From Isosphaeraceae bacterium (GTDB taxonomy: Bacteria > Planctomycetota > Planctomycetia > Isosphaerales > Isosphaeraceae), in assembly GCA_025356475.1 (NCBI GenBank), contig JANXSX010000068.1, positions 1 to 64,000 on the forward strand: a DNA stretch of 64,000 bases, written 5' to 3'. Every line of letters begins with the position of its first letter. Position 1 is the stretch's first letter. The position numbers and the translations under genes were made by a program. The notes beneath the pieces are model-generated. The model worked only from the letters and a program-made list of their open reading frames with translations, was not told where the DNA came from and made no database searches. Shown in pieces: positions 57,938 through 62,834 of the stretch.

Positions 57938-59350
57938 ATGCGACTCGATACTTCGCAACAATTCAAGACTGACATGCGGCTTCGAATGGCCCCTCGCATG
58001 ATTCAGTCGATGGAAATATTGCAACTTCCTCTCATGGCGTTGCAAGAGCGGATCGACCAGGAACTTGAAGAGAATCCGCTACTCATCGACCTCCGCGAAG
58101 GTGACACGAGCGAAAACGAGTCCGAGGTCGACGCGAGTTCGTCGACCGAGACTGATAGCGATGTTGCAGATTGGGAAGAATGGGATGACCGGGATCCGCA
58201 TCGTCCGAGTCGCGCAGCACTGAGCGAAGAGGCGGACCGCAAGTACGACGCCATGCAAAATATGGCCTCTCGGCCCCGTTCCTTGCACGATGAACTTGAC
58301 GATCAGCTTGGGTTCCTACCCACCGACTCGAAGTTGCGTGCACTCGCCGAATATATCATTCATAACCTCGATGAGAATGGATACCTCCAGCTCAGCCTGC
58401 ACGAGATCATCCGCGATTTCGGCGGCGAGGCCGATCAGTCCGAAGCTGATGAGGCCCTCCAACTCGTTCAGAAACTGGAACCACAGGGTGTCGGTGCCCG
58501 TAATCTTCGGGAGTGTCTGCTCCTCCAGCTTACCCCCGACCTCCCCTTCAAGGATGTTCTCTACACCCTGATCTCAAATCATCTCGACGACATTCAGCAG
58601 AACCGACTTCCGCAGATTGAGAAGAAGACCGGCATTGCCATTGATGTGATCAAGGAAGCGATCGAACAACTTCGGCGTCTCGATCCCCGGCCAGGCGCTC
58701 GTTTCCTCTCCGACAATAATCAATATGTTTTGCCCGACTTGATCGTTGAACCCGACGAGCAAGGTGTCTATCAGGTCGCGCTCATTGACGATTACACGCC
58801 TCAACTCTCAATCTCGCATTACTACCAGAAACAGCTCAAGAATAAGGCGATGGACCCGGTCACTCGGGAGTTCATTCAGAAGAAGATTCAGTCAGCTCGG
58901 TGGTTGATCGAGTCCATCGAGCAGCGCAGGGGAACCCTCCTCAAAGTCGCTCGCGCGATCATTGAGCATCAAAAAGACTTTCTTGACAAGGGCCCGGAAT
59001 CGATCCAGCCCCTCAAGATGCAGCAAATCGCCGACCAGGTTCATGTCCACGTGACAACCGTTAGTCGCGCTGTCGATGACAAGTGGATTCAGACTCCGCG
59101 CGGAATCTTTGCCCTGAAACGATTCTTCGGAGGAGGCACCACGAATGCCGACGGCGAAGAAGTGGCCTGGGACAAGATCAAACAGAAACTCCTTGAGCTG
59201 ATCGCCAAGGAAGACAGATCGAACCCGATGTCCGATGAAGAGATCGTCGACGCTCTCTCCCAAACCGGAGTTCCCGTCGCCCGTCGCACGGTCACAAAGT
59301 ATCGGAAGGCCTTGCGAATTCCATCGAGTCGACAACGGAAACAGTTCTAA
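57938..59350 (+). CDS. rpoN: RNA polymerase sigma-54 factor
   Basis: About 470 residues. Region I (QQFKTDMRLRMAPRMIQSMEILQLPLMALQERI) is the activator-contacting part, region II is acidic (EGDTSENESEVDASSSTETDSDVADWEEWDD), and region III has the core-binding and helix-turn-helix parts (QIADQVHVHVTTVSRAVDDKW). It ends with the RpoN box ARRTVTKYRKALRIPSS. An ATG at 57938 follows CCAGGAAC; a GTG at 57923 would add five residues. Sigma-54 targets need an AAA+ activator; none is in the window. Confidence 0.97.
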   Translation: MRLDTSQQFKTDMRLRMAPRMIQSMEILQLPLMALQERIDQELEENPLLIDLREGDTSENESEVDASSSTETDSDVADWEEWDDRDPHRPSRAALSEEADRKYDAMQNMASRPRSLHDELDDQLGFLPTDSKLRALAEYIIHNLDENGYLQLSLHEIIRDFGGEADQSEADEALQLVQKLEPQGVGARNLRECLLLQLTPDLPFKDVLYTLISNHLDDIQQNRLPQIEKKTGIAIDVIKEAIEQLRRLDPRPGARFLSDNNQYVLPDLIVEPDEQGVYQVALIDDYTPQLSISHYYQKQLKNKAMDPVTREFIQKKIQSARWLIESIEQRRGTLLKVARAIIEHQKDFLDKGPESIQPLKMQQIADQVHVHVTTVSRAVDDKWIQTPRGIFALKRFFGGGTTNADGEEVAWDKIKQKLLELIAKEDRSNPMSDEEIVDALSQTGVPVARRTVTKYRKALRIPSSRQRKQF

Positions 59351-59392
59351 GAATTCGAATGATTGCTGAAATCCGATCCGAGGAGGCCTTTG

Positions 59393-60028
59393 ATGGCTCG
59401 CGAGGACTTTCTGCTTTATCTTGATCAAGCCGCCGGCGCAGCTTCGCCCCGTCAAGCCAAGAACGGTGTACGTCTTGATCCAACACGTATTGAGGAACTT
59501 CTCCGGAAGGATGGACACACTCAGTGGCTAAGCCGTCGGACAGTGAAGGGGTTCGACCCTAAGGATTACGCGAATATCTTATCCGACGTGGAGCTCGAAA
59601 ACCTCAAGAGAGATGTCGCTGGTTTCGGCAAAGTCGCGGAGAGTCTGGGCGGGAAGCAGAAAACAACAGATCAGCAGATTGAGGATGGCCTCCCACATTT
59701 TCTCTCGATGCTCAATATCATGAGTCCGTTTCTTGATGGATTCAACGAATACAAGACATTGAAAGTTGCATTGAAACAAGAAAAATTGCCCTCTTATATC
59801 AAGGACTTCGCAGTCAGCGTGGGTGAAGATTGGACAGGTGATCCAGCGATCAAAATCTGGGTGATTATCGACGACGACGCAGCCGACGAATCATTTTACA
59901 AGGGCGTATCGGATCTCGGAGGCGAAATCGAAGAGATCCTCGAGAGTGTCAATTCTGGAAGACATACATTCATCTACTTTCGCACATTCTCCGAGCAGCG
60001 AGAATTGGAAGAGGCCGGTGTCCGATGA
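59393..60028 (+). CDS. Partner protein of a HEPN-type module, unknown function
   Basis: About 211 residues from ATG 59393, with GAGGAGG upstream. The N-terminal half is helical (EDFLLYLDQAAGAA..., LENLKRDVAGFGKVAE). The C-terminal half has VSVGEDWTGDPAIKIWVIIDDDAADESFYKGVSDLGGEIEEILE, a pattern seen in small proteins encoded next to HEPN-domain genes. It overlaps the HEPN gene by ATGA (60025-60028), so the two are translationally coupled. It may be an antitoxin, a nucleotide-binding partner or neither; no catalytic motif is clear. Confidence 0.65.
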   Translation: MAREDFLLYLDQAAGAASPRQAKNGVRLDPTRIEELLRKDGHTQWLSRRTVKGFDPKDYANILSDVELENLKRDVAGFGKVAESLGGKQKTTDQQIEDGLPHFLSMLNIMSPFLDGFNEYKTLKVALKQEKLPSYIKDFAVSVGEDWTGDPAIKIWVIIDDDAADESFYKGVSDLGGEIEEILESVNSGRHTFIYFRTFSEQRELEEAGVR

Positions 60029-60549
60029 GTCTCGCGGACGATTTGCTCGATCTCGCCGAATTACTCGCAAACACGGGATCGCCGCAACTGGAGCAGGCAA
60101 GCCTACGAAGGTCGATCTCAACCTGTTATTACGCTCTCTTTCACCTTCTTCTCGAGGATGCCTCTCGCAGCGTTGCGATACAATTCGATATCCCGGGTGT
60201 CCAGGCGAGAATTCTGCGCAGTATTACTCATAAAGACCTAAAGACTGTCTCAAATTCGTTTATAAGTAACAATAACCTCCCTATCTTGATCAAATCATTA
60301 ATGAATTCGCACAAATCAGATACAAACGAGATTGTACGTATTGCTAAGATCGTGTGCAGGCTCCAGGAAACTCGTGAAGAGGCGGACTACGAAACTGAGA
60401 CGAATTTCACTCGTACCGAGGTAGCAGCCTTAATAAAAAGCACGAAAGATGCTTTCCAAGCATGGGCCCATGTACGTGAGAAACCTCTTGGACGCGCGTA
60501 TTTATTCTACTTGCTGTATCCGAAGCTCATCTCGGGAGCGTCTCGATAG
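60025..60549 (+). CDS. HEPN-domain protein
   Basis: 174 residues, all helical. LEQASLRRSISTCYYALFHLLLEDASRS is the typical first HEPN helix pair, and REEADYETETNFTRTEVAALIKSTKDAFQAW the last. RILRSITH fits the loose RX4-6H RNase pattern but is not proof of activity. The DNA of this gene is AT-richer than its neighbours (stretches such as AATTCGTTTATAAGTAACAA). Such coupled pairs include toxin-antitoxin RNases, though some HEPN proteins are structural or regulatory. Confidence 0.65.
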   Translation: MSLADDLLDLAELLANTGSPQLEQASLRRSISTCYYALFHLLLEDASRSVAIQFDIPGVQARILRSITHKDLKTVSNSFISNNNLPILIKSLMNSHKSDTNEIVRIAKIVCRLQETREEADYETETNFTRTEVAALIKSTKDAFQAWAHVREKPLGRAYLFYLLYPKLISGASR

Positions 60550-60575
60550 AGAAAGGATCGTTGCGCACTTCCGTC

Positions 60576-62834
60576 TCATCGACCCTTCTTCTTCCCCTTG
60601 CTTTTCCCTTTCCCTTTCCCTTTCTTCGGCCCTCGGTTGACAACTCGTTCGGTGGGTCGAGGTGCGCGGCGGATGGGTTGAGATCGACTGGGGTGCGGAC
60701 CCGTCGCGGGACCTTGACTCGGGTCAGAAGTGGCTAGAACCAGGTCGAGTTCGCGGCGATCGACGTCGATGCTGGCGACCTTGACCTCGATCTGATCGCC
60801 GAGCCGATATCGTTTCCCCCCGCGACGACCGATCAGCGTATGCGTCTCGGACTCCAGATAGTAATAGTCGTCGGACAGGGCAGTAAGGTGCAAGAGTCCC
60901 TCGACAGGCAGCTCAACAAGTCGGGCAAAGAAGCCGAAATCCGTAACGTTAATAATCACCGCGTGGAACGTCTCGCCAATTCTTCCTAACAAGTGCGTGA
61001 GTAGCTTGATCTTGATGAGTTCACGTTCGGCCGTCTCGGCCCTGCGTTCAGTTCGAGTACAATGCTCGCCGAGGGCTGTCAGCTCTTCCAGGTCCGTCTT
61101 GGGCTTCTTGCCTGCGAGGACTGCCGCTAACTGACGATGAACTTGCAGGTCCGGGAACCGGCGGATTGGCGAGGTGAAGTGGCAGTAGTCGTCGCTCGCG
61201 AGTGCATAATGACCGAGCTTTTCTGGGGTGTATCTCGCCTGTTTCAAACTCCGCAACAAGGCATAATGGATCGCGTGGGCTTCGGGCTTCCCTACTGCCT
61301 CTGCGAGCACCTTCTGAAGCTCGAAGCGGCTCTGGGCTTGCTCAATCTCGAAGCCCAGCTCTCGAGCGAACTCGGCGAAATCCTCGAGCTTGCCGGGCTC
61401 GGGGTCGGGATGCACCCGGCGAAGGATCGCTACTTCTTTGGACCCAAGCCAATCCGCGACCGACTCATTTGCGGCAAGCATAAACTCTTCAATGACCTGA
61501 TGGCTTACGTCATGCGATGCAAGGTGAGCCCCCACAACCTGTCCCACATCGCCAAGGTCAATCTCGATCTCAGGCATACTCAGTTCCAACGCCCCGCGCA
61601 GGAACCGCCGCTTCCTCAAGATCATTGCAAGTTCGAGCATTCGCCCCAGCGTCGCGTGAACCTCGGGTAGAAGCCCTGCGGGTATCCCCTCGGATGGCTG
61701 CATCGCCTCAAAGGCTTGCTCATAGCTGAAGCGTTGATCAACCTTGATGGCTGACCTTGCGAAAGTCATCCCAGTCCGGATTCCCTCGGCGTTAAATTCG
61801 AGCAGGGCACTCATCGTATATCGAACGTGCCCTGATTGAAGACTTGCCAGGCTATTGCTAATCACCTCGGGGAGCATTGGAATCACACGGTCGGGCAGGT
61901 AGACCGAAGTCCCCCGCTTCTTCGCTTCGATGTCAAGGGCCGAGCCTATCTTGACGAAGTGCGAGACATCGGCAATATGAACTCCGAGCGACCAGTAGCC
62001 ACGGTCGTCACGACTCAGGCTGATCGCATCATCGAAGTCACGGGCAGTTGCTGGATCGATCGTGACAGTCAAAACCTCTCGGAGGTCAAGGCGATCGTCA
62101 ACATTCTCTTCTTTGAATGTCAATGCCTGCTCACGTGCCTCTTGCAACGTATCATCATCGAACACATCGGGGATGCCAAGGGCACGGATTACTGAGAGTG
62201 TATCAACTCCAGGGGTTCCCCGTGGCCCGAGCAACTCGGTGATGACCCCCTCGCCCTGGTGAGTTGGGCTAGGGTATCGAACCATCTCAAGTGCAACTTT
62301 ATCGTCGGTCTTGGCACCTTTTGCACCTGGGTCGCCGACATAGATGGGAGTTGTGAAGGTGGTGCCGTCGATCCTGACGAAGCCCGCCCCATCGCGTTCC
62401 AGGTACGTGCCGACAAAGAGACCGGCCGCGCGGTTGAGTACCTGAAGGACTTTCCCTTCGATATTCATTCCCGACTTCTTGGGCCGCTTGACAACTTTGA
62501 CAAGCACTTCATCACCACTGGACGCGTCACGTCCCTCATCAGCCGGTATATAGATCTGCTCAGATCGATCGGTCGACAAGTGGGGACGCACGAAGCCGAA
62601 GCCCTTCTGGCTACGGCGATAAATGCCCCTGATGGTCCCCTTCGTATCGGGGAGACGGAGGGTCTTATCCTTTGCCAGCTCGAGCTTGCCTTCCCGGATC
62701 AATCTCTTGATCGCCGATCGAAGGTCGGGATACTCAAGGTCTGCAAGCTGGAACCGACGCGACATCGCTTTCAGAGTCAGCGGCACATAGCCTATGCTGT
62801 TGAGCAGTTCGAGGACCCGGTCTGCGTGATCCAT
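60576..62834 (-). CDS. rnr: Ribonuclease R
   Basis: 752 residues. N-terminal winged helix and cold-shock OB domains, then the RNB domain (TIDPATARDFDDAISLSRDDRGYWSLGVHIADVSHFV, with the metal-binding Asp residues, and HYALLRSLKQARYTPEKLGHYALASDDYCHFTSPIRRFPDL), a C-terminal S1 domain (GETFHAVIINVTDFGFFARLVELPVEGLLHL) and a Lys/Gly tail. It degrades structured RNA 3' to 5'. It lies about 100 bases downstream of the YhaM-like gene on the same strand. Confidence 0.96.
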   Translation of the reverse strand: MDHADRVLELLNSIGYVPLTLKAMSRRFQLADLEYPDLRSAIKRLIREGKLELAKDKTLRLPDTKGTIRGIYRRSQKGFGFVRPHLSTDRSEQIYIPADEGRDASSGDEVLVKVVKRPKKSGMNIEGKVLQVLNRAAGLFVGTYLERDGAGFVRIDGTTFTTPIYVGDPGAKGAKTDDKVALEMVRYPSPTHQGEGVITELLGPRGTPGVDTLSVIRALGIPDVFDDDTLQEAREQALTFKEENVDDRLDLREVLTVTIDPATARDFDDAISLSRDDRGYWSLGVHIADVSHFVKIGSALDIEAKKRGTSVYLPDRVIPMLPEVISNSLASLQSGHVRYTMSALLEFNAEGIRTGMTFARSAIKVDQRFSYEQAFEAMQPSEGIPAGLLPEVHATLGRMLELAMILRKRRFLRGALELSMPEIEIDLGDVGQVVGAHLASHDVSHQVIEEFMLAANESVADWLGSKEVAILRRVHPDPEPGKLEDFAEFARELGFEIEQAQSRFELQKVLAEAVGKPEAHAIHYALLRSLKQARYTPEKLGHYALASDDYCHFTSPIRRFPDLQVHRQLAAVLAGKKPKTDLEELTALGEHCTRTERRAETAERELIKIKLLTHLLGRIGETFHAVIINVTDFGFFARLVELPVEGLLHLTALSDDYYYLESETHTLIGRRGGKRYRLGDQIEVKVASIDVDRRELDLVLATSDPSQGPATGPHPSRSQPIRRAPRPTERVVNRGPKKGKGKGKSKGKKKGR

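Follow-up and report, generated by a model that had tools for sequence, protein, structure and literature searches.

The gene pair between rpoN and rnr in the window (the whole 64-kb stretch of DNA analysed here) is probably a two-gene, type II-like toxin–antitoxin (TA) module with a non-MNT antitoxin: the downstream protein, B, would be a HEPN ribonuclease-type toxin, and the upstream protein, A, would silence it by contact, with the N-terminal domain of A regulating the process. The best-known partners of HEPN toxins are MNT antitoxins, which inactivate them by AMPylation. Gene A extends from an ATG at 59393 to a TGA ending at 60028, and gene B from an ATG at 60025 to a TAG ending at 60549. 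We took ATG 59393, rather than TTG 59363, as the start of A because it is preceded by AGGAGG. Upstream, rpoN ends at 59350 on the same strand as the pair, leaving a gap of 42 nt to gene A; downstream, rnr lies on the - strand and ends at 60576, 26 nt from gene B. A search of the locus for promoters, terminators, tRNAs and Rfam families gave nothing convincing. The features are as follows.

59380..59385 (position approximate), + strand: Shine–Dalgarno-like AGGAGG 5′ of gene A, read from the sequence
59393..60028, + strand: gene A (211 aa), a predicted antitoxin or regulator without a family in Pfam, NCBIfam or PADLOC; model pLDDT 88.5
59393..59779, + strand: N-domain of A, residues 1–129, all helical in the model, with a W45-L46 and V51/D58/L63 signature from sequence comparison
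59780..60025, + strand: C-domain of A, residues 130–211, directly upstream of B homologues (model and loci read)
60025..60028, + strand: ATGA overlap joining the stop of A and the start of B, read from the sequence
60025..60549, + strand: gene B, 174 aa, HEPN protein by profile and fold matches, predicted toxin
60142..60144, + strand: H40 of B, located in helix 2 (YYALFH), invariant, though the search pattern required it in 79 of the 90 sequences
60217..60231, + strand: R65-x3-H69 of B in the helix 2–3 insert, invariant in 90/90, at the place of the AbiV/AF0298-type alternative His
60373..60390, + strand: R117-x2-A-D121-Y122 of B at the canonical Rx4H position (Y replaces H), invariant in 90/90

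A preliminary description of this DNA had noted, between rpoN and rnr, two genes with an ATGA overlap that appeared AT-richer than their flanks; both statements are correct. Measured against the 64-kb window as background, the pair has a GC content of 0.486 (window, 0.578), and GC3 is lowest in A and B (0.54 and 0.51, respectively) among the ORFs, the others ranging from 0.56 to 0.73. The pair is the AT-richest stretch in the window; of the 1157-nt segments in the 64 kb, only 0.4% are equally AT-rich. Composition and patchiness suggest that the pair was transferred into this genome, as the same description had proposed, although neither a donor nor an element edge was found. Both genes are present in single copy in this genome, and B occurs in 12 of the 99 relatives searched (this genome counted). 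Both the pair and rnr are missing within 1.5 kb of rpoN from all 29 relatives of the same family that were read, a pattern at odds with a uniformly conserved housekeeping locus. The rpoN–rnr junction itself (59350-60576) is specific to this genome, the adjacency being absent in 29/29 of these relatives.

On the evidence of profile searches, an AlphaFold model and fold matches, B is a HEPN protein, as had been supposed from its sequence. Searched alone against Pfam, B scored 17.9 bits with PF05168 (HEPN), under the gathering cut-off of 22. The same family was matched at E < 0.1 by 29 of 53 B homologues (best, 7.5e-4), and a PDB profile search with the 53-member alignment returned 2hsb (HEPN protein AF0298; E = 8e-5) together with two more HEPN entries. 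A HEPN fold is confidently predicted for B (pLDDT 95.4), and 2hsb is also the top Foldseek match of the model (probability 1.00, although E = 0.04); other HEPN proteins appear further down the list, including HEPN toxins of HEPN-MNT pairs.

Across 90 B sequences, R28, S32, A37, F39, H40, R65, H69, R117, A120, D121 and Y122 are invariant. The search pattern itself fixed part of the segment S32–H40 in 79 of these sequences; H40 is also invariant in the 11 obtained independently of that pattern. The canonical Rx4-6H RNase motif was found at its HEPN position in 0/90 B homologues, and the position reads R117-E-E-A-D-Y122 in window B. In the model, residues 55–96 lie between helices 20–54 and 97–122, and H69 falls within this insert. 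Anantharaman et al. (2013; PMC3710099) described a HEPN class, AbiV/AF0298, that lacks the motif histidine and has a conserved His between helices 2 and 3. Given H69 in the helix 2–3 insert and the retention of R117, we therefore place B in the AbiV/AF0298 class. The RILRSITH segment highlighted in the preliminary description is present in B, includes R65 and H69, and matters, but it is not a canonical Rx4-6H motif; we rejected it as a canonical Rx6H (R62…H69) on account of the lack of conservation of R62 and its wrong place in the fold. From this residue pattern B is probably, but not certainly, catalytic. Window B carries E118 where 80% of homologues have H, and its branch (1.8, compared with a median of 0.41) is among the two longest in the B tree, with all invariant residues retained. 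Given E118 and the very long branch, window B may be degrading or specialised.

The model of protein A combines a helical N-terminal part (residues 2–129) with a C-terminal part in which two strands (136–145 and 151–159) are followed by a helix (166–186), another strand (191–198) and a last helix. A C-terminal pattern had already been reported for the first gene, and EDWTGDPAIKIWVIIDDD is indeed present in protein A. The C-domain is marked by the motifs D-x-x-G-[DE]-P-A and Y-x-x-F-R-x-x-S-E-Q, with conservation highest at D146 (98%), G149 (87%) and Y/F193 (87% Y), followed by E201 (80%), R197 (76%) and D161 (73%). Searches with A gave no match in Pfam, NCBIfam or PADLOC and no significant match in the PDB; a profile search with 47 aligned relatives gave no consistent match, and a viral fold search gave none under E = 0.01. 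We set aside a relationship to zinc transporters (CDF) or acyl-CoA synthetases, for which the best E value was 0.005, the likeness being a generic alpha/beta shape with no shared motif. No recognisable DNA-binding domain, as for autoregulation, was found in A.

A single-sequence search of genome contigs with B returned no match, and a profile search was used instead; in GTDB genomes it found at least 473 stretches encoding B relatives, of which we read the best 79. Coupling of the two genes is constant among these, with B immediately preceded by an A C-domain gene in 78/78 checkable loci (the 79th is cut by a contig end and hence uncheckable; in two of the 78 the A gene is interrupted, by a stop in L065 and by an N in L121). 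The commonest A–B spacing is a 4-nt overlap (25 of 79 loci), and the loci come from six phyla: Acidobacteriota, Planctomycetota, Pseudomonadota, Myxococcota, Armatimonadota and Cyanobacteriota. In closely related pairs, where dN/dS was computable, it ranged from 0.06 to 0.31 for both genes, indicating purifying selection; one near-identical pair showed zero amino-acid changes. Because homologues keep gene order and conserved residues, with purifying selection, the pair is not a chance arrangement. An Acidobacteria bin (L047) and a Gammaproteobacteria bin (L090) carry close B proteins (dN about 0.1), a likeness that reflects either inter-phylum transfer or misbinning.

B relatives also occur on plasmids. 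One lies between ParA and an integrase on an Acidisoma plasmid, and others are present in more than 30 rhizobial plasmid records, many of them conjugative; several of the rhizobial copies read adjoin repC and/or ParB. No B relatives were found on viral contigs and phages. In seven alphaproteobacterial plasmid copies (L193, L195, L196, L197, L198, L200 and L201), B is frameshifted, internally deleted or truncated. In five of the seven, A is undamaged or almost so; in L197 and L198 it is damaged too. None of the plasmid copies read had a broken A with an intact B. Some of the broken B copies could be sequencing errors. The decay of B with A kept on plasmids is what would be expected of a toxin B and an antitoxin A. 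A chromosomal locus (L065:5700-6004) has the reverse of the plasmid pattern, with an in-frame TAA in A and an intact B.

In many lineages A consists of the C-domain alone (roughly 88–118 aa); the N-domain is present in the class of the window. Searching for the N-domain in an evenly drawn phylum sample returned the window itself only, and a class-wide search found it in 28 places. It precedes the C-domain and a B homologue in 22 of these. In five others (L129, L130, L132, L134 and L143), the N-domain continues into another C-half, and the gene overlaps by 4 nt that of a protein with a canonical RNxLxH motif. The RNxLxH protein is probably a second HEPN kind, judging by its motif and weak Pfam HEPN matches; a profile comparison, with only four sequences on one side, found no relation between it and B. 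In the one other place, L144, the A gene is damaged and is followed by a gene that by eye resembles a restriction endonuclease, with no HEPN gene directly adjacent. The joining of the N-domain to a second C-half and HEPN-like protein at five loci suggests that it is a swappable sensor or regulator.

Other additions to A were seen at individual loci. In one Thiosymbion genome (L071:2358-5657), an NNH1-NACHT-LRR protein of 1099 aa has an A C-domain at its end and lies immediately before a B homologue, so that an NLR-like protein of bacteria is linked to the partner domain of a HEPN protein; with the sister copies L065 and L086 unfused, this fusion may be a recent accident. In L011, L148 and L149, A has an extra N-terminal domain of roughly 60–100 aa, beta-rich by eye, before the N-domain, and acidobacterial A proteins (L045, L056, L060, L088, L096 and L101) have an N-terminal extension of their own (HYGPLEVVEVDL...), for which two tested gave no Pfam match. 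We raise, as a tentative and rather speculative idea, that the N-domain might be a sensor cassette in general use among planctomycete-like bacteria that can be mounted, via matching C-domains, on two or more HEPN toxins with no apparent relationship, and that the C-domain might in turn be mountable on other sensors (NACHT-LRR, other extensions), which together would form an undescribed modular sensor–antitoxin platform for HEPN toxins.

The preliminary description had offered a toxin–antitoxin module as one possible identity for the pair, and coupling, patchiness and plasmid copies fit it, as would the decay bias seen on plasmids. The pair also has the arrangement of a type II TA system, a conserved bicistronic unit that is mobile or patchy and plasmid-borne. 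We infer RNase activity and toxicity for B, and direct inhibition and sensing for A. In the mechanism that we propose, A would be translated first from an mRNA common to both genes. The A C-domain would bind B and hold it inactive by direct contact, with no nucleotidyl transfer, and the helical N-domain would act as the regulator or sensor that times the release of B. Freed through loss of A or by an N-domain signal, B would cut RNA at an alternative active site of the AbiV/AF0298 class, formed by R117 with H69/R65 and perhaps H40. Against the toxin–antitoxin reading stand the absent canonical Rx4-6H motif, the long branch and E118 of window B, the L065 exception and an A protein with no recognisable DNA-binding domain.

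A less probable account, though one that deserves some weight, is an abortive-infection module, in which the N-domain of A would detect a phage product, the C-domain would release B and the cutting of RNA would halt infected cells. It draws on the membership of AbiV in the closest HEPN class (PMC3710099), the coupling of the N-domain to two apparently unrelated HEPN-like effectors, the C-domain fused to an NNH1-NACHT-LRR protein beside B in one genome, and the variation of A N-terminal extensions among lineages. However, the possibly accidental nature of that fusion, given the unfused L065 and L086, and the lack of B copies among viral contigs or phages count against it, as do the genomic surroundings. 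Neighbours are heterogeneous and mostly ordinary genes, their PADLOC matches are scattered (mad3 and AriA among them), and PADLOC models matched neither A nor B. The commonest neighbour match, mad8, also occurs in 14/14 control genomes, and we dropped a defence island called from it as non-specific. For the defence module named as one possibility in the preliminary description, the PADLOC and neighbour survey gave no clear defence-island signal and no positive evidence from context; the pair may nonetheless have such a role.

We consider it improbable that the pair is non-toxic and regulatory, with B an RNA-binding HEPN protein devoid of catalytic activity, as has been proposed for MtlR, and with A its control partner in some stress response. 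Such a role would agree with the canonical Rx4-6H missing from all 90 B sequences and with the proposal that HEPN domains lacking this motif are possible RNA binders (PMC3710099), but an invariant His/Arg set is retained at the alternative place, and patchiness, plasmid copies beside partition genes and the bias towards loss of B suit a toxin better. Least probable is an unrecognised HEPN-MNT system, with A as a strongly diverged nucleotidyltransferase that would modify Y122 or another tyrosine of B. Gene order as in MNT-HEPN, the invariance of Y122 and a superficial G-D-x10-D-D string in A would all suit it. However, the MNT motif GSx10DxD is absent from A, and a loose form of the pattern has five scattered matches in 126 A-type entries. 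No NTase family or structure was matched by A or its 47 aligned relatives, and none of the 50 fold matches listed for A is a nucleotidyltransferase. Moreover, the A C-domain comprises only about 80 residues, and the G-D of A lies before a strand in the model where MNT has a helix. On motif, profiles and fold we rejected A as an MNT, in agreement with the earlier suggestion that the partner may not be of the known MNT type.

The toxin–antitoxin module that we favour looks like an uncatalogued kind; the two genes occur together in many bacteria, and also on plasmids, but have no family model. With no Pfam, NCBIfam or PADLOC model for A, and with B under the HEPN cut-off, both genes are labelled 'hypothetical' in annotated plasmid records. 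No description of the non-MNT partner A was found in the open-access literature searched. Effector-associated domain (EAD) systems (PMC8195603) similarly have a small helical domain common to proteins coupled to different effectors; such systems have the same domain on several genes of a locus or genome, linked to a ternary NTPase core, with homotypic recruitment, whereas A is single copy and no such core was seen at these loci. The dyad of a HEPN protein (MAE_18760 family) with a ParA/Soj-like ATPase (PMC3710099) is likewise a predicted TA system with an upstream non-MNT partner, but that partner is an ATPase, whereas the partner domain of A is a small alpha/beta domain.

Closest to B are the AF0298-type HEPN-T proteins (PF05168, UPF0332) and AbiV, which share its fold, the StAYYAMFH helix, an R-x-x-x-D-Y where Rx4H would stand and the His of the helix 2–3 insert. 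Unlike them, B is longer (about 150–175 aa), has additional helices at the C terminus and an R65-x3-H69 motif of its own, falls under the Pfam cut-off and is tied to gene A. The catalytic site of this HEPN class is predicted only, and the common N-domain would offer a direct handle on the switch that turns such modules on. With HEPN-MNT (HepT-MntA, type VII), the pair shares two small genes, an upstream partner, a downstream HEPN protein that is the probable toxin, and a patchy distribution that includes plasmids. It differs in that B lacks Rx4H and belongs to the AF0298 class, and in that A has neither an NTase motif nor an NTase fold match, which makes AMPylation unlikely. If our reading is true, this widespread pair, with a partner that is not a nucleotidyltransferase, would represent a second, probably non-enzymatic means of restraining HEPN proteins.
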